DNA from: Methanobrevibacter ruminantium M1 | Lineage (GTDB): Archaea > Methanobacteriota > Methanobacteria > Methanobacteriales > Methanobacteriaceae | Direction: 5' to 3' | Length of the DNA: 64,000 nucleotides | Assembly (NCBI RefSeq): GCF_000024185.1 | Contig: NC_013790.1 | Span: forward strand, 1,263,501-1,327,500 | Shown here: positions 1,867 to 25,627 of the stretch, piece by piece | Layout of the letters: every line of letters starts with the position of its first letter | Position numbering within the stretch: the stretch's first letter is position 1 | Notes under the pieces: model-generated | Told to the model about the DNA's origin: nothing | Database searches by the model: none | What the model saw: only the letters and a program-made list of their open reading frames with translations | Made by a program: the position numbers and the translations under genes

Positions 1867-2283
1867 TCTCTTTTTAATCTTTTAACCCATCTTTTTATTT
1901 TTTTTTAAACTTTTATTCTTATTTTATTTTTTATTCAAGCTCTTTTTCATTTAGAATTTTTTAGACATTTAAAACTTTATCTGCTTTTTTTTAAGATTTT
2001 TAGTTTTTTTTTAAACAATTTTTTTCACTCATTTCTCAATTTATCCTATTTTTAATATTTGAATTTTGACTTTTTCATTTTTTAAATTATATTTTTTAAG
2101 CTTGTTTTATTGACTAATTTTAGTAATGTATATATAGTGTTATGAATATAGTATAATCAAGTCAGTTTTATAATTTTTAAAATAGTATTTATGGTGTTTA
2201 TTCGAATATTCCATATCAAACATGATTTAATTTTTATAAAATAGATTTGATATGACTTATTTAATAGTTTTAAGGGTGAATTT
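1867..2283. other. gene-free T-rich stretch with adhesin 1 promoter
   Basis: No coding sequence is visible. The first 230 bases are T-rich terminator-like sequence. A TATA-like GTATATATAG near 2126-2136 would give a leader of about 130 bases to the ATG at 2284. That ATG is preceded by AGGGTGA, a good ribosome binding site. Confidence 0.55.
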
Positions 2284-2586
2284 ATGTCTAAAAGAGTTCT
2301 AGTCAGTTTTGCATTAATTTTCATTTGCTTATTTTCTATAAGCGCAGCCTGGGCTTTAGATATGGATTCGAGCGATTTAAATAAGAATATAGGCACTAAT
2401 TTAGAAAATAACTTTAACACAGATTCAAACAACAATTTAGACAGTAATTTAAACTCTAATTTTAACAGCAATTTAAACAGCAATATAGATAATTCCACCC
2501 AAGAATTAGACTTAAGCACTAAAAATTTCAAAGCCCTAAGCTCTAATTCATCAATTGGGGGGGGGCAAATAGCTCTGTTAATTTAA
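2284..2586 (+). CDS. adhesin-like protein 1, N-terminal part (closed by frameshift)
   Basis: This frame carries the start and signal peptide of a giant surface protein. Residues 1-25 are a classic secretion signal (basic start, hydrophobic core, cut near AWA-LD), followed by an Asn/Ser/Leu-rich stretch of short NSN-type repeats. At codon 92 the frame enters nine G residues (2557-2565), reads three Gly codons, then stops seven codons later at 2584. The rest of the protein continues in another frame from the same spot. As it stands, the frame yields only a short secreted peptide of 100 residues. Adding one G or removing two would fuse it to the downstream frame. Confidence 0.85.
   Translation: MSKRVLVSFALIFICLFSISAAWALDMDSSDLNKNIGTNLENNFNTDSNNNLDSNLNSNFNSNLNSNIDNSTQELDLSTKNFKALSSNSSIGGGQIALLI
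2557..2565 (+). repeat. run of nine G inside adhesin 1 coding sequence
   Basis: Nine consecutive G lie in a gene that is otherwise very AT-rich. Upstream codons are in one frame and downstream codons in another, joined exactly here. Ten or seven G would restore one open frame of about 1660 codons. Such tracts are classic slipped-strand mispairing sites, but they are also common places for sequencing error. Confidence 0.9.
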
Positions 2587-5500
2587 GCAGCAATCAAAAC
2601 TCCCAAGACAATTCTATAATTATTGATGACACAAATTATAACACTTTTTTTGATAATCAAGGCTTTTTAAGCAGTGATATTGAAGCCAACTCTCTCATTT
2701 ACTTTGGAAATCTATCAAACAGATACATAAAAATAGACATTCCACTTACACTCTCCTCCTTAAATGAGACTACTATTTTTAATTCCACTATAGAGGTTTT
2801 AATGGATGGATCTTATTCCAATCTAACAAATCTAAACTTTTATACAAATGCAACAAGTGAGAATTCCAATTATCTTACACCAATCTACATCAACGAGGCA
2901 TCAGATTTGGTCATTGAAAACAACCCAATTTATATAGACTATTCTGATGGATGTAACTACAATCTAGCGGGAATCTATGCATTTGGTGCATCCAATAATA
3001 ATATAATAGGAAATAACAGAATATCCATCTATTCAAGGTCTCTAAGCAATACATCAAAACATTACATTTATGGGATAGACTTCTCTTCATATTCCTCAAA
3101 TGCCTATTCTAAAGATAATGCGAAGGGAAATGACATATCATCAAATACAATAGATATCATTTCTGACTATTATGCAAATGCAATTACATTGTCCTGTGCA
3201 GTTGACACCACTCTTGAATCAAACAGCCTCCATTTAAAATCAGATTCATTTGTTTATGGTATGGTTGCAGAGTATTTTGACTTTGGAAATGGTTTGAATC
3301 CATCAAATAACTTTAATTTTACAAAAAACACTATTGAAGCTAGCTCAAATATGGTATATGCCATTCAATTCTTTAATGTATTTGATGTTAATATTAAGGA
3401 AAATACAATCAAAACCAATTCCAACGGTAGTTATGGGATAAGTGCATATGAGTCTTATAATCATGATATAGGATATAACAATCTTTTTGTAAATGGAAAT
3501 GACGTTTCAATGATTGGAACTAATTTTGATGCCATAGGAACTGGCCATAGTGGAATATACTATATGAGGGATTCACATGATTTAAGCATTCATGACAATA
3601 ATGTTTTATCCAATTACTCTCTTGGGGGAGATTATGCAATCAGGTTCGATGCAAGCTCCAGCGAGAATATAAATGTTTTTAAAAATAATTTAAGTTCTAA
3701 TAATGGAAAGTATCTAGGAAATGATGCAGTTAACGGTAATGTGACTGTTTCTGAAAACAATCATTATTATGGAGATAATGATCTTGGCACTAATGATTTA
3801 CGTATTTTTGACATCTATGTTGATTTGAATGGAAATGACAATAAGGGAGACGGCTCTATAGGAAAGCCATTCAAATCCATTAGCAAAGCTTTGTCCTATT
3901 TAAAGAATTTAACTAACATTTATGGTTCTAGTGCTTCATCTAGTTCCACCACTAAAGTAAAAGGCATAATTCATCTAGGTGAAGGTAAATATAATGGCTA
4001 TGGAACTAATTTGAGAATATATATAACAGGTTTGGATGTGGAAATATTTGGATCTGGCTATAATAAGACCATTATTGATGGAGTGTCTTCACACTGGTTC
4101 TTTGATATTTCAGAAGATTCTTCAGTTTCTATAAAAAATTTAAGTCTTGCAAATGGAGTTTATCGTTATAATGATGGAGGATTGATTCACAATAAAGGTA
4201 ATCTATATCTTGAGAATTGTATTTTTGATAATGCAAAGATGTCTCCTAGTTCTGCAATCATTTATAATGATGGCATTTTAAATTTAAAGAACAATTTGAT
4301 GAATATGACTGCAAATGGCTATCATATATATAACAATGGATTTATTGATGGTTTGTATTTGAATTTTATTGGAGACAGCCTTAGTGAAGATGAAAGATTA
4401 TTGAATACAGATTCCCTTAGCTTCATATTAACCGCATATGTTCATGATGACAATGGAAACCCTATAACTGGAGGCTATATAAGATTCTTTATCGAAGGCA
4501 AGGAAATATTGGTAAATTCTAGCCTCATTGAAGGTTTGGCTAAATTATACACATTCTCTTCCTTAAATGGAATCATCAAGATATCAGGATACTATTCAAA
4601 TGCATATACCAATCTTTTTGTCAATATTGGGAAAGTAAACAGTAGCATCATCAGCGATACAATAAAAGTTTATGTTAATTACAGTGCTAATGAATCAAAA
4701 TCAGACGGTTCCTTTGAAAAGCCGTTCAAGAGTATAAATGATGCATTGGATGCTCTCAACACATGTATAGAACCGGTTACTATCACTGTTCTTGATGATG
4801 AAACTACAGAACAGATTGACGATTCAAGATTGAATAGGAATAATGTCATTACAATAGAATCCATTAATAAGACAAACATTTCAACTAATTGGACATTTAA
4901 ATCAGATGCAAATATCCGATTGAAAGGTCTTATTTTTGATGGCTATGGATTAGTTAAGGACAACACTTATTTGACAATAGATAATTGTTTGTTTAATAAT
5001 ACTCCTGCAAGTGCTATAGTGTCTACAAATGGTAGTTTGACTCTTTTAAATTCTAATTTTACAAATAACAATGTAAAGGACAATCACACATTCTACACAG
5101 GCTTTAGCACCCCTGTAATAACTACTTCTCTTTGGGACATTCAGTATGATTATGATAAGGGAGGGGCTGTGGATAATTCCTTTTCCAATCTAACTATTTT
5201 AAATTGTAATTTCGCTTTTAATGAGGCTTATAATGGAGGAGCAATCTTTAACAATCAAAGCGATCTTCATATTTCAAATTCAAGTTTCACATCTAATCTT
5301 GCATTCAGCGGATTTTATGAAAATCCTCGTGCAATAGACTTTTCAAATGCAATGGATAAGGATCAGGACCGTAATGTCGCAAGCAAGGGTGGAGCAATCT
5401 TCCAGTATCTTGGCGAAGAAGTTGTAGTAACCGACACTGGCTTTTTAAATAATACTGCGGGGGGCTATGGGGGAGCATTTTATTCTTCTGGCATCTATCC

Positions 5501-7274
5501 TTATAGGAATGACAGTTCCAGCATCATTGAAGGAATTCCATTCATTGTTTATGAAACAGAAGATGGATTGATGGATAATTTTGGAAATTATGCTGATAAT
5601 CTTTTATCTCCACAAGACATATACTTTATAAACTGTAATTTTGATTCTAATGTGGCTCCAATAAGGGGAGGGGCAGTTTACTGCATTAATAATTCCCAAA
5701 CCCAATATATTTCCTGTAATTTTGGCAATAATCTTGTTTATACTTATAATATGTCCCAACTGTTTGGAGGATTAAATAAGAATTCCCATAGGAAATGGAT
5801 TTTTGAAGATGAATTGGACCAAGTCTACAGCATCTTCTTCACCGCCGTAAACAATGGTGGAGCGATTCATGATGAAAATTTAAAAATTATTGACAGCACA
5901 TTCACTGCAAACACATTGCAATCTGGAGGTTCAATTCTTCTCCCTTCAGTAATCCGCTATTCCGCTGATGTCTATACTTTGCCTAAAAACACTGCAGGCG
6001 CAATCATCACTAATTCAGGCAAAGGGGGAGAATCAGTCTATGTGGCAGACTCTTCATTGCTCACATCTGAAGATTCAAAATATATTGGAATAAATGGATG
6101 GACAGGCACTAGCACAGGAGGTTCAATCAGAAGAATCATCCATGAAAACGGCCAAGAAACTGGCACTGGCGGAAACGGTAGCGGAACAGGAGGTTCTGGA
6201 AATGGTTCAGGAACAGGAAAGGGGGCTTATGGAAATTCATTGTCTTGGAGCGATATATTGTCTGCATTGGGCGGTGACGCTCGAGGCATTGCAATTAATG
6301 GCGAAGGATCCAGCTTTTCTGATTTCATTAGTGGTTTGATAAATGGAAAATCCTCTTCAAATTCAAGTTCTGATAGTCAGGATAATGGTTCTGGCTCTTC
6401 CAATTCTTCTTCTCAAAATCCTGTTAATGGAACAATCCCTTCTAATTCAAGTTCTGATAGTCAGGATAATGGTTCTGGCTCTTCCAATTCTTCTTCTCAA
6501 AATCCTGTTAATGGAACAATCCCTTCTAATTCAAGTTCTGATAGTCAGGATAATGTTTCCAGCTCTTCTAATTCCAGTTCAACAAAACCTATGGATGATT
6601 CAAACAAGACTAATTCCACTTCTGATGTTCCGGCTAATGATACAGTAAATGCCACTGACGGTAGTTCTGACTCTTCAATTTCTGAAAATCCTGTAAATGG
6701 GACTGCTTCTAATGATAATAATTCCTCTGATGTCAATGGCGGAGCTTCTGATATGGATGATGATAATATTTCTAATTTAACAAATAGCAGTTCTGAGATT
6801 CCAGTTGATACTAATATTAATGATACTAACAATTCATCTTCAGAAAATTCTAATTCAACAACTGACTTGGATGATTCTGAAGATAAATCTGATGTGGATA
6901 AGGATGATAAGAGCGAATCTGATGATGTCGGACTTAGCGATAATCCTTTAAATGGAGATGTTTCAGAAAGTTCTGATAGTCCAGATAGTCCAGATAGTCC
7001 TGATAGTTCAGAAAGTTCTGACAGTCCTTCAAGTCCAGATAGTAGTTCAAGTGATTATCAATCAAGTTCTTCAGCGGCATCTCCTGGAGATAGTTCAAAT
7101 AGTCCTTCATCATCATCTTCTTCAAGTGCATATAAGATTTATGAAGAGGAGATTGATGATAATATTTTGGAAAAGAATGTTGACCTTGAAAATCTTTTAA
7201 TAATTATTGTCCTGTTTTTAGGATTGATAATTTTAGGATATTATAAAAAATCAAAAGAAGATGAGGATAATTAA
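2565..7274 (+). CDS. adhesin-like protein 1, main part (beta-helix, stalk, membrane anchor)
   Basis: The frame is open without interruption from the G run at 2565 to the stop at 7274; the first internal ATG is at 2802, but the sequence before it (ANSSVNLSSNQ...) is clearly protein too. It holds many short beta-strand repeats with N-x-F/I and GGA motifs typical of right-handed beta-helix adhesins. Two module starts follow the pattern YV...D-G-S...PFKSI..AL (near 3810 and 4670). Next come a Gly-rich segment, a long Ser/Asn/Asp stalk with 84-base repeats, and a C-terminal membrane helix followed by KKSK, which would anchor it in the cell membrane. The stop lies 17 bases before adhesin 2, so the two are probably co-transcribed. 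Role in adhesion is inferred from architecture. Confidence 0.85.
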   Translation, partial: ANSSVNLSSNQNSQDNSIIIDDTNYNTFFDNQGFLSSDIEANSLIYFGNLSNRYIKIDIPLTLSSLNETTIFNSTIEVLMDGSYSNLTNLNFYTNATSENSNYLTPIYINEASDLVIENNPIYIDYSDGCNYNLAGIYAFGASNNNIIGNNRISIYSRSLSNTSKHYIYGIDFSSYSSNAYSKDNAKGNDISSNTIDIISDYYANAITLSCAVDTTLESNSLHLKSDSFVYGMVAEYFDFGNGLNPSNNFNFTKNTIEASSNMVYAIQFFNVFDVNIKENTIKTNSNGSYGISAYESYNHDIGYNNLFVNGNDVSMIGTNFDAIGTGHSGIYYMRDSHDLSIHDNNVLSNYSLGGDYAIRFDASSSENINVFKNNLSSNNGKYLGNDAVNGNVTVSENNHYYGDNDLGTNDLRIFDIYVDLNGNDNKGDGSIGKPFKSISKALSYLKNLTNIYGSSASSSSTTKVKGIIHLGEGKYNGYGTNLRIYITGLDVEIFGSGYNKTIIDGVSSHWFFDISEDSSVSIKNLSLANGVYRYNDGGLIHNKGNLYLENCIFDNAKMSPSSAIIYNDGILNLKNNLMNMTANGYHIYNNGFIDGLYLNFIGDSLSEDERLLNTDSLSFILTAYVHDDNGNPITGGYIRFFIEGKEILVNSSLIEGLAKLYTFSSLNGIIKISGYYSNAYTNLFVNIGKVNSSIISDTIKVYVNYSANESKSDGSFEKPFKSINDALDALNTCIEPVTITVLDDETTEQIDDSRLNRNNVITIESINKTNISTNWTFKSDANIRLKGLIFDGYGLVKDNTYLTIDNCLFNNTPASAIVSTNGSLTLLNSNFTNNNVKDNHTFYTGFSTPVITTSLWDIQYDYDKGGAVDNSFSNLTILNCNFAFNEAYNGGAIFNNQSDLHISNSSFTSNLAFSGFYENPRAIDFSNAMDKDQDRNVASKGGAIFQYLGEEVVVTDTGFLNNTAGGYGGAFYSSGIYPYRNDSSSIIEGIPFIVYETEDGLMDNFGNYADNLLSPQDIYFINCNFDSNVAPIRGGAVYCINNSQTQYISCNFGNNLVYTYNMSQLFGGLNKNSHRKWIFEDELDQVYSIFFTAVNNGGAIHDENLKIIDSTFTANTLQSGGSILLPSVIRYSADVYTLPKNTAGAIITNSGKGGESVYVADSSLLTSEDSKYIGINGWTGTSTGGSIRRIIHENGQETGTGGNGSGTGGSGNGSGTGKGAYGNSLSWSDILSALGGDARGIAINGEGSSFSDFISGLINGKSSSNSSSDSQDNGSGSSNSSSQNPVNGTIPSNSSSDSQDNGSGSSNSSSQNPVNGTIPSNSSSDSQDNVSSSSNSSSTKPMDDSNKTNSTSDVPANDTVNATDGSSDSSISENPVNGTASNDNNSSDVNGGASDMDDDNISNLTNSSSEIPVDTNINDTNNSSSENSNSTTDLDDSEDKSDVDKDDKSESDDVGLSDNPLNGDVSESSDSPDSPDSPDSSESSDSPSSPDSSSSDYQSSSSAASPGDSSNSPSSSSSSSAYKIYEEEIDDNILEKNVDLENLLIIIVLFLGLIILGYYKKSKEDEDN
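6360..6575 (+). repeat. 84-base in-frame tandem repeats in adhesin 1 stalk
   Basis: Units starting at 6360, 6444 and 6528 encode a 28-residue Ser/Asn/Gly-rich block beginning NSSSDSQDN. The first two are nearly identical in DNA, which points to a recent duplication; the third diverges in its second half. Copy number changes would alter stalk length without breaking the frame. Confidence 0.85.
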
Positions 7275-7291: not shown

Positions 7292-10200
7292 ATGAGTTAT
7301 TTTAATAAAGGACATATATGGAATATTTTATTAATTTGTCTTCTCATCGGAACTTTGGCTATGATGGGTTCAGCAAGTGCCAGTTCTGCTAATTTAGATG
7401 ATTTTAGCAATCTTGCATGTGACTCTAATTCATATAATGATTTAAGTGTTGGCTTTGAATCTGATGCTAATTCATATAATGATTTAAGTGTTGGCTTTGA
7501 ATCTGATGCTAATTCATATAATGATTTAAGTGTTGGCTTTGAATCTGATGCTAATTCATATAATGATTTCAGCACCTATTTTGAATCTGATTCTAATTCA
7601 TATGATATTTCTGATAGTTTGGTTAATTCTAATTCTGATCGTTTGGTTAATTCTAATGGCTTAATTGAGTTCAATATTTCTGCTCCTAATGACATTCAAT
7701 TAAATGACAAAGCACCTATAAAAAACTCTTTAAAAGAATATGATGAAAGGGTATTTTATGTTTCTTTAGATGGTAATGATTTCAATAATGGATTAAGTCA
7801 AGAAAATTCATTTAAATCCCTAAATAAGGCTTTAGAAAATCTTCATGATGCTAATAAAACAACAATATATGTTTTTGAAGGAACTTTTCTAAGTGAAAAT
7901 AGCTACGATCTATTCTTTGAAGGGGTTGGAAATAGTCAGATGATTTCCATTATAGGTTCTGGGGTAAATAAGACAATATTGGATGGTGAAGGTTTGCATA
8001 GGCTATTTAATGTGGATAATTCTATCAATTTGACATTAAGGGATTTGACCTTTGTCAATGGTTTTGACTTTTCATCTGGCGGAGCCATTTATAATAAGGG
8101 CAATCTGACTTTAGTCAACACTTGCTTTTATAATAATAATGTCTATTCTGAAGATGCATATCAGCATGTGTCTCTGCTTAGCGGCGGAGCTATAGAAAAT
8201 GAGGGATTCCTGACAATTGAAAACTCTTCATTCATTAAAAATAGTGTGGGTTCTGTTTTTAATCAATATGCCTATGGAGGAGCCATTTGCAATCATGGAA
8301 ACTTAACTATAAACAATTCCATTTTCAATAACAACAGCCTTGAGACATATATTGATTTGAATGAGAATTCCTATTTCCGTAAGTGGAACGCTCTTCAAAC
8401 TGGGGGAGCGATAGCAAGTTTTTCAGATGGTGCTCTTATCTCAAATACAGAGTTTTCTAATCATTCAATTTCCATATTGAACAAGTATCCTTTCGTTCAA
8501 AAGACATTCATGACATTCTCAGCTGGGGGAGCTGTTTATATTGAAGGCAATAATCATAATTTCATCAATTGTTCATTCTTAAGCAATGATGCAGATAATG
8601 GTGGGGCTGTTTACTTTAAGGGTAACAATACATGCTTTGACTATTGTGATTTTGACAATAACTCCGCTTTTATGGGTGGAGCAATTATGACAATCGATTA
8701 TAATTTAAATGAGGCTTGGATGCCTACTTTAAAGAATCTGACTTCCAACAAATATTCTAATCTGAACATTTCAAATTCCAATTTCAGTAATAATCATTTT
8801 ATATGCACTGATTTTGGTATAGGATACCGTATTTCTCCTGGTGGAGCTGCAGGATACTTTAAAATAGATAATATTACTATCGACAATTCTAGTTTCACAA
8901 ACAATGGGGTGCTGGAAAATTGCACCATATTCGTTTCATCTAGGTGTGGGGGAGCAGTATTCCTTTATGGTCAAGATTCAAAAGTAAACAATTCTAGTTT
9001 TGTTCACAATAATGTTGAAGTAGGCGGAGCCATAATGAATTATGGATTTGATACAAATGTATCAAACTCTAAATTTATCAATAATTCTGCTTGTTATTCT
9101 GATGGAGGAGCCATTTTCCATTCTATTGGTGATCTTTTGATTGATAATTGTGATTTTGACTACAATAGGGCTGTAAAGAATGGGGGAAGCATTCAAGCAA
9201 GTTATGATTATACAAATAACTATCTCTTTGAGCAAAAATCACTCTATAACAATTCCAGATTTAAAAATTCTGCTGCAGAATATGGCGGTGCAATATTTGA
9301 CATGGGAAATGCGGTTTTATACAATGATTTGGAATTCATTAACAATTCAGCATCCTATGGTGGAGCTATCTATAATCAAGGATTCTCCAATACCTTCAGA
9401 AACTCCACTTTCGTCAATAATTCTGCATTTAGCGAGGATTATTCCAATGGAGGAGCCATCTATAATTATGGTTCAAATGCATTATATGAGTCATCAATCT
9501 TCATAAACAACAGCGCAGATATGGAAGGTGGAGCCATTTCCAATTTTGGTGAAAGCTGTGTTGTTCAAAACAATACCTTCAATCTGAATAAGGCATTTAA
9601 AGGAGGATCTGTTTATTTGAGTGGACAAGGGGGCAGATTCCAAGACAATAATGTCTTTTCATCATTTGCAATATATGGAGGTGGATTATATAACTCAAAC
9701 ATAAATCTCATTTGCCTAAGCAACTCTTTCAACAATTGCAGTGCCAATGTTTCAGGGGGAGCTATCTATAACCTTGTTTCCACACTTGAATTATATTCTA
9801 ATTCAATGAATGACTGTAAAGCTAAACTTTCTGGACTTGGCAGTGGAAATTATGTATTCACCTGTGCCAATATCTCTTATTTGGTCATTTCATTTGCAAA
9901 TAATGGAAGCTTTAATATTGTTGACAATAAGGGTGTTTTGCTAGTTGCTAACATAAGCGACAATATGGGCAATCCTATTACTGGAGGTAATTTTACTTTT
10001 ATCTTGTTTAATCAAACCAATCAGGATATTGATCTAATAGGTAGTTCTGGTTCTTCCAGTTCTAATTCTTCAAATCCAAGCAATCTAGAATCAAGCATCA
10101 TAGGTGTATGTGATGTGGTAGAAGGACAAGCATTCTTAAGATATGATACTTATTTGGAATTAGGCTCCAGATATACAATTTCAGGAACCTATTCATATGC

Positions 10201-13200
10201 AGCCGAACCTGTCTTGACACAAGTGGCTAATTTAAATTCAGTTCTATCCACAAGGATGTACTTCTCATCAAACATTACAGATGATATGGTTAATTTTGGA
10301 GAGGGCTTCAATTATGAAATCATTCTTTTGGATTCTAATGACAATTATATTCCTAATGCTGAAATCTTATTGTATGTTGATGCAGTCTATTCCAAGTCTG
10401 TATTTACCAATGAATTTGGCTATTTGAAGGGTAGTGTCAATAATTTAACTTCAAGCGGAAAGCATTTCTATAGCTTCATTTATAGCGGAGATATTTTCCA
10501 TAATAGGGCAAGCTATGATTTAAACTTTACTGTATTCTACAATAACTCCTACTATTATGATGATGTTTCCATCAGCTTTAGAGATTTGATCTATTCATTT
10601 GTCTATACAAGTCCTAACAGTGAAATTCCTTTTGAATTTTTGATTTCTCATAATGATGGCGTTCCATTGGGAAATGTATCAACGCCTCGTTATTTTGTCG
10701 CTTATGAAAATGGCATTCCACTTGCCAGTTTCTCTTGCACAGATTATTTGGGTGTTTGTAAAGGTCAGGAAGTCTTATATTCAATTATAGAGCTTAACGG
10801 AAAATTAGCTAAAATCTTTAGAACTTCACCTGAAGGTATTTTCCAAATGTTAATAAAGCACTCAGAAAGAGGACTCTATGAGTATAGGATTGCATTTCTT
10901 GGAGATTTGGTAAAGCACTACGATTCTAGCACCCATAATGGCATAAGCAATGAAGACACTTTTTACAATCCTTGCAATATTTCATTTTTAATGCTTGTTG
11001 ATGATGAGCAATCCACTATTCCAACTAGTTTGAATTATAATGGTCCTAATAAGATTACAGAAGTGGATTTTGCTTATTATAACTTTAGCTTAAGTGAAAA
11101 CAGTAAGAATCCATTGGCCAATAAAGAAATCAGAGTTTATGATGATGGAAATTACTTAGGTTCAAGTTATACAAACAGCAAAGGCTTTGCAGAATTCAAT
11201 TTCCCGCAGATGCTTGATAAGGGCAAGCACATAATCAGTTTTGTCTATGTCGCAGATGGGGATTATAAAAGTGCATACTCCATCTTTGAATTGAATGTAT
11301 TGGAAAACCCTTCTAAAGACAATGTATCATTTTTCAATAAAAGTTCTTTAAACATTACTGGAGCTAATAATAATTTTACAGCTCAGATTAAGGATTCACA
11401 TAATAATAATCTATCTGAAATGGTAATAAGGCTATCTATTCTGTTTAATGGTTCTGACAATAAGCCATATATTAAGAATTACACTGCAGTAAGCGATAAA
11501 AATGGTGTGTTTTCTATTCCTCTTGAATTAGGGGCAGGTAGCTATCTGATTAAATGTTCATTTGCTGGAAACAAGCATTATTGGAAATCCAGCAAGACAT
11601 TCAATCTTACTCTTAATAAGGTTCCTACATTATTATTTGGCCAGTCCAGTGTTGAAGTATTGAAAAATGACACTTATCTAACTGTTATATTATCTACAAA
11701 TGATTTGAAAAGTTTATCCGATTCAAAAATCAAGTATTTGGTATTTGATTCAAATATCACTGGCTTGAACTTATCCTATAATGATTCAAGTGAATTAATA
11801 AGGGACATTTCAAACTATGCATACACATTCTATGCATTTACAAATGAGTCAGGCATCTCCAAGCTTAAGATAAATCTTCCAGTGGGCAGTTATTATCTGG
11901 TAAGTTTATTTGAAGGGGATAAATGGTATGATGAATCTAGCCTTATCACCAATCTTACAATCTATGGAAGTTCATCAAGATTGATTGCAAATGAAAATGT
12001 CATAGTTAAAAAATCAGGATATTACACTGTTAAGCTCGTAGATGGCAATGGCAATCCTATCCAGGGTCAGACAATAGAGATTACAGTTTGCAATAAGACA
12101 TACACTAGATTCTCTGATTCCAATGGGGAGGCTCGATTGGCCATTAATCTAAATTATGGAAATTATTCCATCCAATCTAAGTTTAATGGAACTCTTAATT
12201 ATTCATCTTCCATTGTTGCCTCAAGGCTATATGTGGTTGATGAGGATTATAAGTATCCTTCCATATTGACTGTCAATTCATCTGATATCTATAGGGCCTT
12301 TGGCTATTATGATGTGGTATTGTCTGATGTAAATGGAAATCCTTTGCCAGAGAAGAGCATTATTGTTGAAGTGAATGGCACAGGATTTAATATTAAGACA
12401 GATAATAATGGATTGGCTCATTTGGATTATAATTTCACTGTAGGCAGATACAATATAGTTTCCCACTTTGTGGGAGATGGGGATTATCAATATAGCAATG
12501 TCGGTTCCATCTTGAATGTCGTTAATGAAAATGCGGCTAACACTCTGCTAAATTCATCAATTTATTGGGTATTGAAAGGAAAAGGCAATAATTATACTGT
12601 CACTTTGACTGATAAGATTCAAAATCCGATTGAAGGCCAGATAATTGTATTTTCCATTAATGGCAGGGAATATTCAAGAACTACAGATAAGTATGGAAAC
12701 GCAAATCTGGCCATAAACCTCAATCCAGGATCTTATGACATTTATGCATTCTACAGGGGCACTGATGTATATTATTCAAGTGAAACCTATAGTAAGTTGG
12801 TTGTTTTAGCTTTGGAAAATGAAAATGAAGGGTCTAATTCAAGTTCAGCCATTGGCTCTTCCAATTCCAGTTCCAATAATGATTCTGATGTAGATTCTAC
12901 TAATACTTCTAATTCAGGTAATTCTGAGACTAATTTAACTAATGGTTCAAGTTCTGGAGATTCTGGAATTGATAATATTAATGGTTCAAGTTCTGGAGAT
13001 TCTGGAATTGATAATATTAATGGTTCAAACGCCAGTACAAATATTTCTAATTCTACTGGCGCAGGTAATGATTCTTCCAGTTCTGGGCTTGATAATATTA
13101 ATGGCTCCAGTTCAAATATTTCTAATTCCACTGGATCTGATAATAACTCATCTAGTTCGGGTATTGGTGGCAATTTGACTAATGCTACTGTTAATGATGG

Positions 13201-13897
13201 AACTTCTATTTCAGGTAATTCCTCTGTTACTAATGGTTCTTCTAATCTTTCAAATAATGACACTATAAATAAAAGCGACAAACCGGTGATTATTCCTAAA
13301 AGAACTGTAACAAAGATTATTTGCCATAATATGACCACCACTGCAGTTTCTAAAGCAGATGGGAGGGTAGGAAAATACTTTGAAGTAAGTCTTATAGATG
13401 CAAATGGCAAACCATTAGCCAATAAAAGAATCCTAATTGGATTCAATGGAAGAAAATATAACCGTACAACAAATGCTACAGGAGGTGCAAGGCTTCAAAT
13501 CAACCTAGCATACGAAGGAAAATACACCTTTGCAATCGCGTTCCTTGGAGATGATTATTATAGCGGTTCTTTTGAAGTGGCTCTCATTACAGTAAACAAG
13601 CACAGTCCAAAGCTCGATGCATCTTCAAGAGCATATAAGTATAGTGATAAGACTAAATCATTAACTGCTAAATTGCTATCTGCCAATGGAAATCCAATCA
13701 GTGGCAAAAATATAATCTTTACCGTCAATGGCAAGAATTATGCTGCAAAAACAGACTCAAAAGGACTTGCAAGGGTAAATGTTTCCTTAAATAAAAAAGG
13801 AACTTATACAGTAAAAATTAAATTTATGGGGGACAGTTCATATAAATCCGCTTCCAAGAAAATAAGCCTTAGAATAATCTCCCCTAGCGAAAGATAA
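7292..13897 (+). CDS. adhesin-like protein 2 (beta-helix plus Ig-like repeats)
   Basis: This 2201-residue secreted protein has a signal peptide (residues 1-30, ending SASA). Then come four copies of a 14-residue block (SYNDLSVGFESDAN) and one beta-helix start motif (FYVSLDGND...). A long run of GGAIYN / NSSF strand repeats forms a right-handed beta-helix up to about residue 830. From about residue 860 come Ig-like or carboxypeptidase-regulatory-like repeats with GNPI and DSNG turns, then a Ser/Asn/Gly linker (about 1840-2000). The two C-terminal Ig-like domains match the C-terminus of adhesin 3. There is no C-terminal membrane helix, so attachment is probably to the pseudomurein wall through that conserved tail (inference). 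A GGAG site precedes the ATG; it follows adhesin 1 by 17 bases. Confidence 0.88.
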   Translation: MSYFNKGHIWNILLICLLIGTLAMMGSASASSANLDDFSNLACDSNSYNDLSVGFESDANSYNDLSVGFESDANSYNDLSVGFESDANSYNDFSTYFESDSNSYDISDSLVNSNSDRLVNSNGLIEFNISAPNDIQLNDKAPIKNSLKEYDERVFYVSLDGNDFNNGLSQENSFKSLNKALENLHDANKTTIYVFEGTFLSENSYDLFFEGVGNSQMISIIGSGVNKTILDGEGLHRLFNVDNSINLTLRDLTFVNGFDFSSGGAIYNKGNLTLVNTCFYNNNVYSEDAYQHVSLLSGGAIENEGFLTIENSSFIKNSVGSVFNQYAYGGAICNHGNLTINNSIFNNNSLETYIDLNENSYFRKWNALQTGGAIASFSDGALISNTEFSNHSISILNKYPFVQKTFMTFSAGGAVYIEGNNHNFINCSFLSNDADNGGAVYFKGNNTCFDYCDFDNNSAFMGGAIMTIDYNLNEAWMPTLKNLTSNKYSNLNISNSNFSNNHFICTDFGIGYRISPGGAAGYFKIDNITIDNSSFTNNGVLENCTIFVSSRCGGAVFLYGQDSKVNNSSFVHNNVEVGGAIMNYGFDTNVSNSKFINNSACYSDGGAIFHSIGDLLIDNCDFDYNRAVKNGGSIQASYDYTNNYLFEQKSLYNNSRFKNSAAEYGGAIFDMGNAVLYNDLEFINNSASYGGAIYNQGFSNTFRNSTFVNNSAFSEDYSNGGAIYNYGSNALYESSIFINNSADMEGGAISNFGESCVVQNNTFNLNKAFKGGSVYLSGQGGRFQDNNVFSSFAIYGGGLYNSNINLICLSNSFNNCSANVSGGAIYNLVSTLELYSNSMNDCKAKLSGLGSGNYVFTCANISYLVISFANNGSFNIVDNKGVLLVANISDNMGNPITGGNFTFILFNQTNQDIDLIGSSGSSSSNSSNPSNLESSIIGVCDVVEGQAFLRYDTYLELGSRYTISGTYSYAAEPVLTQVANLNSVLSTRMYFSSNITDDMVNFGEGFNYEIILLDSNDNYIPNAEILLYVDAVYSKSVFTNEFGYLKGSVNNLTSSGKHFYSFIYSGDIFHNRASYDLNFTVFYNNSYYYDDVSISFRDLIYSFVYTSPNSEIPFEFLISHNDGVPLGNVSTPRYFVAYENGIPLASFSCTDYLGVCKGQEVLYSIIELNGKLAKIFRTSPEGIFQMLIKHSERGLYEYRIAFLGDLVKHYDSSTHNGISNEDTFYNPCNISFLMLVDDEQSTIPTSLNYNGPNKITEVDFAYYNFSLSENSKNPLANKEIRVYDDGNYLGSSYTNSKGFAEFNFPQMLDKGKHIISFVYVADGDYKSAYSIFELNVLENPSKDNVSFFNKSSLNITGANNNFTAQIKDSHNNNLSEMVIRLSILFNGSDNKPYIKNYTAVSDKNGVFSIPLELGAGSYLIKCSFAGNKHYWKSSKTFNLTLNKVPTLLFGQSSVEVLKNDTYLTVILSTNDLKSLSDSKIKYLVFDSNITGLNLSYNDSSELIRDISNYAYTFYAFTNESGISKLKINLPVGSYYLVSLFEGDKWYDESSLITNLTIYGSSSRLIANENVIVKKSGYYTVKLVDGNGNPIQGQTIEITVCNKTYTRFSDSNGEARLAINLNYGNYSIQSKFNGTLNYSSSIVASRLYVVDEDYKYPSILTVNSSDIYRAFGYYDVVLSDVNGNPLPEKSIIVEVNGTGFNIKTDNNGLAHLDYNFTVGRYNIVSHFVGDGDYQYSNVGSILNVVNENAANTLLNSSIYWVLKGKGNNYTVTLTDKIQNPIEGQIIVFSINGREYSRTTDKYGNANLAINLNPGSYDIYAFYRGTDVYYSSETYSKLVVLALENENEGSNSSSAIGSSNSSSNNDSDVDSTNTSNSGNSETNLTNGSSSGDSGIDNINGSSSGDSGIDNINGSNASTNISNSTGAGNDSSSSGLDNINGSSSNISNSTGSDNNSSSSGIGGNLTNATVNDGTSISGNSSVTNGSSNLSNNDTINKSDKPVIIPKRTVTKIICHNMTTTAVSKADGRVGKYFEVSLIDANGKPLANKRILIGFNGRKYNRTTNATGGARLQINLAYEGKYTFAIAFLGDDYYSGSFEVALITVNKHSPKLDASSRAYKYSDKTKSLTAKLLSANGNPISGKNIIFTVNGKNYAAKTDSKGLARVNVSLNKKGTYTVKIKFMGDSSYKSASKKISLRIISPSER
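7430..7597 (+). repeat. 42-base in-frame tandem repeats near N-terminus of adhesin 2
   Basis: Four units begin at 7430, 7472, 7514 and 7556. The first three are practically identical and the fourth is diverged (STYFESDSN in place of the usual ending). They lie just after the signal peptide, and near-identity at the DNA level suggests recent expansion. Confidence 0.9.
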
Positions 13898-25618: not shown

Positions 25619-25627
25619 CCCCCCCCC
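25619..25627. repeat. run of nine C in gene-free DNA
   Basis: Nine consecutive C lie in a region below 20 percent GC. No reading frame on either strand is meaningfully joined across it; the minus-strand frame that spans it is 67 codons of low-complexity sequence. It lies about 70 bases after candidate RNA A. Confidence 0.85.

Follow-up and report, generated by a model that had tools for sequence, protein, structure and literature searches.

A nine-G tract, a candidate phase-variation switch, within a split adhesin gene of Methanobrevibacter ruminantium M1, a rumen archaeon

The split adhesin gene and its orthologues

M. ruminantium M1 is a rumen archaeon encoding 105 adhesin-like proteins, whose genome was assembled from Sanger and pyrosequencing data and finished by PCR (PMC2812497). 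The window, i.e., the whole stretch of 64,000 nucleotides of contig NC_013790.1 that was analysed (1,263,501 to 1,327,500), carries near its start an adhesin gene split into two forward-strand frames. A putative Shine-Dalgarno sequence (GGGTGA, 2274-2279, forward strand) precedes the ATG of this gene. Its 5' part (2284-2586) encodes a signal peptide, with the hydrophobic stretch VLVSFALIFICLFSISAA, and then an Asn/Ser/Asp-rich linker. As sequenced, this upstream ORF has 100 aa, from the ATG at 2284 to a TAA ending at 2586, and 91 of its codons precede a G9 homopolymer (2557-2565, forward strand), a candidate slippage switch, just past which it ends. The 3' part (2547-7274) encodes a beta-helix-type body, a Ser/Asn/Asp-rich stalk and a hydrophobic C-terminal anchor (LENLLIIIVLFLGLIILG). 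This downstream frame follows a TAA (2544-2546), is open from 2547 to its stop codon (7272-7274), i.e., over 1575 codons, and has its first ATG at 2802, without a signal peptide. The next gene (7292-13897, forward strand) is an intact adhesin gene encoding 2201 aa.

The two adhesin frames share 40 nt only (2547-2586), with the G9 tract inside. Nowhere else are the two frames open together, which confines the frameshift to this overlap. A run changed by +1 gives a single computed ORF of 1663 aa and a run changed by -2 gives one of 1662 aa; nine G are out of frame while ten or seven G are in frame. As in contingency loci, a slippable homopolymer thus lies within a gene and its length dictates the reading frame. 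An earlier note on this DNA had already described a signal-peptide frame and an adhesin frame meeting at nine G, adhesin-like features on both sides, a downstream frame open back to the tract and the restoration of one protein by ten or seven G. All these points hold, the downstream frame reaching even 2547 instead of 2565, but the stub attributed to nine G is the 100-aa ORF and not a product of 92 residues.

The gene belongs to the surface class by its signal peptide, its beta-helix orthologue and its C-terminal anchor. In the same way, Methanobrevibacter adhesin-like proteins combine a signal peptide, a body of beta-helix and Ig-like repeats and a C-terminal surface anchor (PMC2812497, PMC11532034), as found here. 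Pfam gives no match at E≤0.01 for the M1 body; the Beta_helix match is found on the intact orthologue from M. olleyae.

This orthologue from M. olleyae SIG14 (G002, L010/L286) is a single protein of 1464 aa with a signal peptide and no tract, and the adhesin pair formed by the split gene and its 2201-aa neighbour is syntenic in this species. The orthologue from the Methanobacteriaceae MAG 290 (G020) is also intact (1430 aa) and without tract. An alignment query gave matches only in these two genomes. A fourth orthologue, from a different genus (G036, a single contig of 1,951,395 bp), is broken about 190 codons in by its own G9, with 196 open codons before the run and 1192 after it in another frame. 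Two of the four orthologues, M1 included, therefore carry a G9, at differing positions, and the other two have none; judging from the sequences, the runs of M1 and G036 are independent.

Because the M. olleyae orthologue is one intact protein devoid of tract, the two M1 frames belong to one gene, whose reading frame is broken by the tract. The M1 body shares 59% identity with this orthologue over 1368 codons, and its dN of 0.33 against a dS of about 1.8 (near saturation) indicates evolution as a coding sequence. The marks of a degraded pseudogene, namely additional stops or frameshifts and a relaxation of selection, were sought downstream of the tract and not found: the frame has 1568 open codons and zero further lesions. 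Likewise, no shift site conserved across the orthologues was found, as sought for programmed frameshifting or transcriptional slippage. Close relatives or other strains of M1 were retrieved neither by protein search (genome and viral contigs) nor by flank pattern (viral contigs).

G/C runs in the M1 genome

Markov models of order 1 to 4, trained on the window and scaled to the 2,937,203-bp M1 genome, predict 0.3-5 G/C runs of at least 9 per genome, and three are found; about 0.01-0.1 are expected per window. The view of the earlier note that a G9 is very unlikely by chance is thus right for one locus, where such runs are rare, but the run is unsurprising genome-wide, and its rarity was discarded as proof of a switch. 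The non-random aspect of the M1 G/C9 runs is their location, not their number, two of the three sitting exactly at intragenic frame breaks.

The second G9 of the window (25619-25627, reverse strand, read as C9 on the forward strand) is intergenic and lies 454 bp before a helicase-like gene (26082), with no visible effect on a reading frame and no adjoining adhesin gene. The third run (C9, genome position 1985004) splits a SAM-dependent methyltransferase gene (L134:3346-4342, M1 genome about 1984350-1985345), so that its N-terminal part, with a Cys pair, and its Methyltransf_23 domain are in different frames. In homologues of G083, G127 and M. olleyae, both parts are in one frame. The neighbouring genes, read by eye, are polysaccharide flippase-like and glycosyltransferase-like, and this split methyltransferase in a surface-polysaccharide cluster is a candidate for a second switch in M1.

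More generally, the genus of M1 is poor in G/C tracts (0-3 per genome). A loss of mismatch repair in M1 was considered and dismissed, as a MutS_V match and NucS are present. Elsewhere in M1, an MscS-like channel gene has a C8 run, as read on its coding strand, immediately before a Shine-Dalgarno-like GAGGAG (L001:1501-1508, M1 genome 818119-818126).

Poly-G tracts across the family

Poly-G runs of at least 9 were counted in 139 genomes of the family, most of those other than M1 being MAGs, and listed tract by tract in 75; the fetched stretches yielded 184 distinct tracts. Genes from the same neighbourhoods served as controls, and gene-class labels rest on Pfam matches plus reading by eye. Among coding G-runs of at least 9, 14 are out of frame and 6 in frame, versus 2 and 65 for runs of G5-8 (p=7e-10). 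A looser list, from which three antisense rows out of 31 were dropped by judgement, has 21 of 28 out of frame; this is close to the two thirds predicted by free slippage.

The coding tracts affect genes for DNA methyltransferases, HsdS subunits, adhesins and glycans. For example, in D12 (Dam) methyltransferases from two genera (L171 and L188), the domain is cut at the run, the profile being matched over 1-29 and 41-251 (G11) or 1-29 and 41-253 (G9). An HsdM-type N6 methylase (L242) is interrupted likewise (profile 2-171 and 180-295), as are, according to Pfam, a C5 methylase (L068) and N6_N4 methylases (L144, L190, L233), and the paired recognition domains (TRDs) of HsdS are separated at the run in L230 and L262. 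Restriction-modification genes account for 7/28 tract-bearing genes by a strict count (p=6e-4) and 11/32 by a loose one (p=5e-6), against 2/89 neighbouring controls. Among these genes of gut methanogens, L171 and L188 (Dam), L068 (C5), L230 and L262 (HsdS) and L242 (HsdM), out of frame at G9-11, are candidate archaeal phasevarions. Of 33 Dam genes, only 2 have an uninterrupted G-run where the GGG motif lies. Two poly-G N6_N4 methylase regions, one of them L190, lie 77,099 bp apart on the same contig (G053:C273:42541 and 119640) with identical tract spacing, which could reflect a duplication or an assembly repeat.

The adhesin layout seen in the window (signal peptide, linker, G-run, body) recurs in L283, where a G11 leaves the gene OFF, and in L265, where a G12 leaves it ON. 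Other in-frame examples with G10-12 are L093, L226 and L278. Two pairs of related loci were rejected as proof of switching: the FkbM genes of G030 and G031 (G11/G10) are confounded by flanking indels and by an additional nonsense codon, the G030 gene being decayed beyond its tract, and in the G135/G136 pair (G11/G10), upstream homology stops about 30 bp short of the tract.

Many other tracts are intergenic, and the placement of most of these is not random. The next gene within 500 bp in the G direction is exported and N/S/T/D/G-rich, an adhesin class assigned by a simple rule, for 48/68 tracts versus 13/229 controls (p=3e-27), and for 11/24 (hand count, p=6e-7) when the paralogous copies of G028, G030 and G031 are set aside. 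The Beta_helix profile matches 28 of the 47 downstream exported genes and Chlam_PMP 17. The distance from the tract to a downstream signal-peptide protein is 241-457 bp in G028 and 118-247 bp in G030/G031; in G041, a G12 is located 156 bp before an exported, N/S/T/D/G-rich gene. Nearly every sampled G028 tract precedes an adhesin gene, and dispersed non-coding repeats were ruled out for G028, G030 and G031, nearly all of their tracts being upstream of exported adhesins. In these adhesin families (L135-L159 in G028, L100-L127 in G030/G031), the DNA before the gene is conserved and includes a G10-15 tract, for instance ATGTTTA-G12-14-TAGTCTATGG followed by a TATA-like TTTATATA. It is possible that such tracts act as a promoter-spacing switch common to dozens of paralogues. 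An upstream-tract switch exists for nadA in Neisseria, where the repeat occupies the region upstream of the adhesin gene; the tracts of the family resemble it by their placement before adhesins but differ as poly-G runs located 118-457 bp upstream of archaeal ORFs.

Phase variation and its alternatives

The best reading of the M1 G9, with a probability of roughly 0.6, is that of a contingency tract prone to slipped-strand changes within one gene, which encodes a large surface adhesin of the beta-helix type. Slipped-strand phase variation is favoured because the gene classes, the frame statistics and the preference for the coding strand match those of bacterial contingency loci. Whenever a G is gained or lost at replication, the frame of the body would come to match that of the signal peptide or cease to do so. 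The M1 cells that were sequenced would be in the OFF phase and produce at most a secreted stub of 100 aa, whereas 10 (or 7) G would give the full exported protein of 1663 (or 1662) aa, anchored by its C-terminus. Since the tract encodes Gly in a low-complexity linker, in-frame length changes should be harmless. Switching would be reversible, populations would be mixtures of both phases and adhesion would be affected. Nine G are at the short end of the range for bacterial poly-G switches. The proposal of the earlier note is supported in part: the break of a single adhesin gene at a slippable G-run is backed by the intact M. olleyae orthologue, the purifying selection on the downstream frame and the G036 break, and poly-G switching in archaea, as an idea, draws strong comparative support from the family survey. 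Two of the four orthologues lack the tract, and the chance argument fails at genome scale.

A one-way frameshift, by which a single slip would have left the adhesin dead in M1 with no selected switch, appears unlikely. Intestinal Methanobacteriota are richer in pseudogenes (PMC13135261), two orthologues do without the tract and the G030 FkbM gene combines a tract with an extra nonsense codon. However, the downstream frame of the M1 gene is under purifying selection and has no other lesion in 4.7 kb, a G9 is intrinsically reversible, and random decay would produce neither the gene-class bias of the family nor ON examples with G10-12. A miscount, M1 having in truth ten G and an ON gene, seems more doubtful still. 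The M1 assembly is a Sanger/454 hybrid (PMC2812497), homopolymers are weak points of 454, and undercalls would likewise put two of the three M1 G/C9 runs at frame breaks. Nevertheless, base conflicts were resolved by PCR during finishing (PMC2812497), the same kind of break occurs in the independent single-contig genome of G036, and even with ten G the adhesin gene would keep a long slippable tract. Recoding, in which the G-run would make the RNA polymerase slip or the ribosome shift frame and some full-length adhesin would arise from an unchanged genome, is very improbable: homopolymers can drive slippage, and poly-A frameshifting was reported for a gene cluster including archaea (PMC3711429), but those cases are A/T runs, the tract position differs between orthologues, two of which need no recoding, and other family members occur in both phases.

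Slipped-strand phase variation would make the M1 adhesin one instance of a family-wide use of poly-G in adhesins, DNA methyltransferases/HsdS and surface-glycan genes. Because its relatives bear similar G-runs in or just upstream of such genes, the group probably toggles surface and DNA-modification genes as Campylobacter and Neisseria do. The poly-G/C contingency loci of Campylobacter (PMC539331) also have G mostly on the coding strand, so that Gly and not Pro is encoded, affect cell-envelope or glycan genes, set ON/OFF states by frame and are often strain-specific; in contrast, the hosts are here archaea, switching is deduced from sequence and many of the tracts precede genes instead of interrupting them. 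As for L230 and L262, the NgoAV hsdS gene of Neisseria gonorrhoeae contains a poly-G that, depending on its length, shortens the protein to about one half (PMC6789123), the two loci differing from it as archaeal genes known from sequence data.

Phase variation, frameshifts and homopolymers were searched for in the two descriptions of Methanobrevibacter adhesin-like proteins (PMC2812497, PMC11532034) and are not mentioned there. In a 2010 survey that covered 18 archaeal genomes, poly(A)/poly(T) tracts were over-represented and lay close to gene starts, with poly(C)/poly(G) tracts not significantly closer to 5' ends (PMC2831843). According to a 2025 review, archaea are a gap in what is known of the distribution of phase variation and a matter for future work (PMC11868660). 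Our search of the open-access literature gave no report of poly-G phase variation in methanogens. Within the papers searched, the bacterial contingency-locus pattern has apparently not been described for archaea. Phase variation is reportedly known from the haloarchaeal virus phiCh1 (Klein 2012). This viral system shares the archaeal setting and is not known to rely on a homopolymer within a cellular gene.

Poly-G phase variation is probably a general strategy of the methanogens of this family. With G9-15 tracts ahead of adhesin families, and frame-setting tracts within other adhesins, DNA methyltransferases, HsdS and glycan genes, each cell would draw a random surface and methylome, archaeal phasevarions included. 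If so, gut and rumen methanogens would hedge their surfaces like bacterial commensals, and OFF cells could evade anti-methanogen vaccines based on single adhesins. OFF phases may also underlie some of the genes annotated as pseudogenes. Archaeal phasevarions, if real, could be tested with ordinary long-read methylome data, and the M1 locus is a small case open to direct testing.
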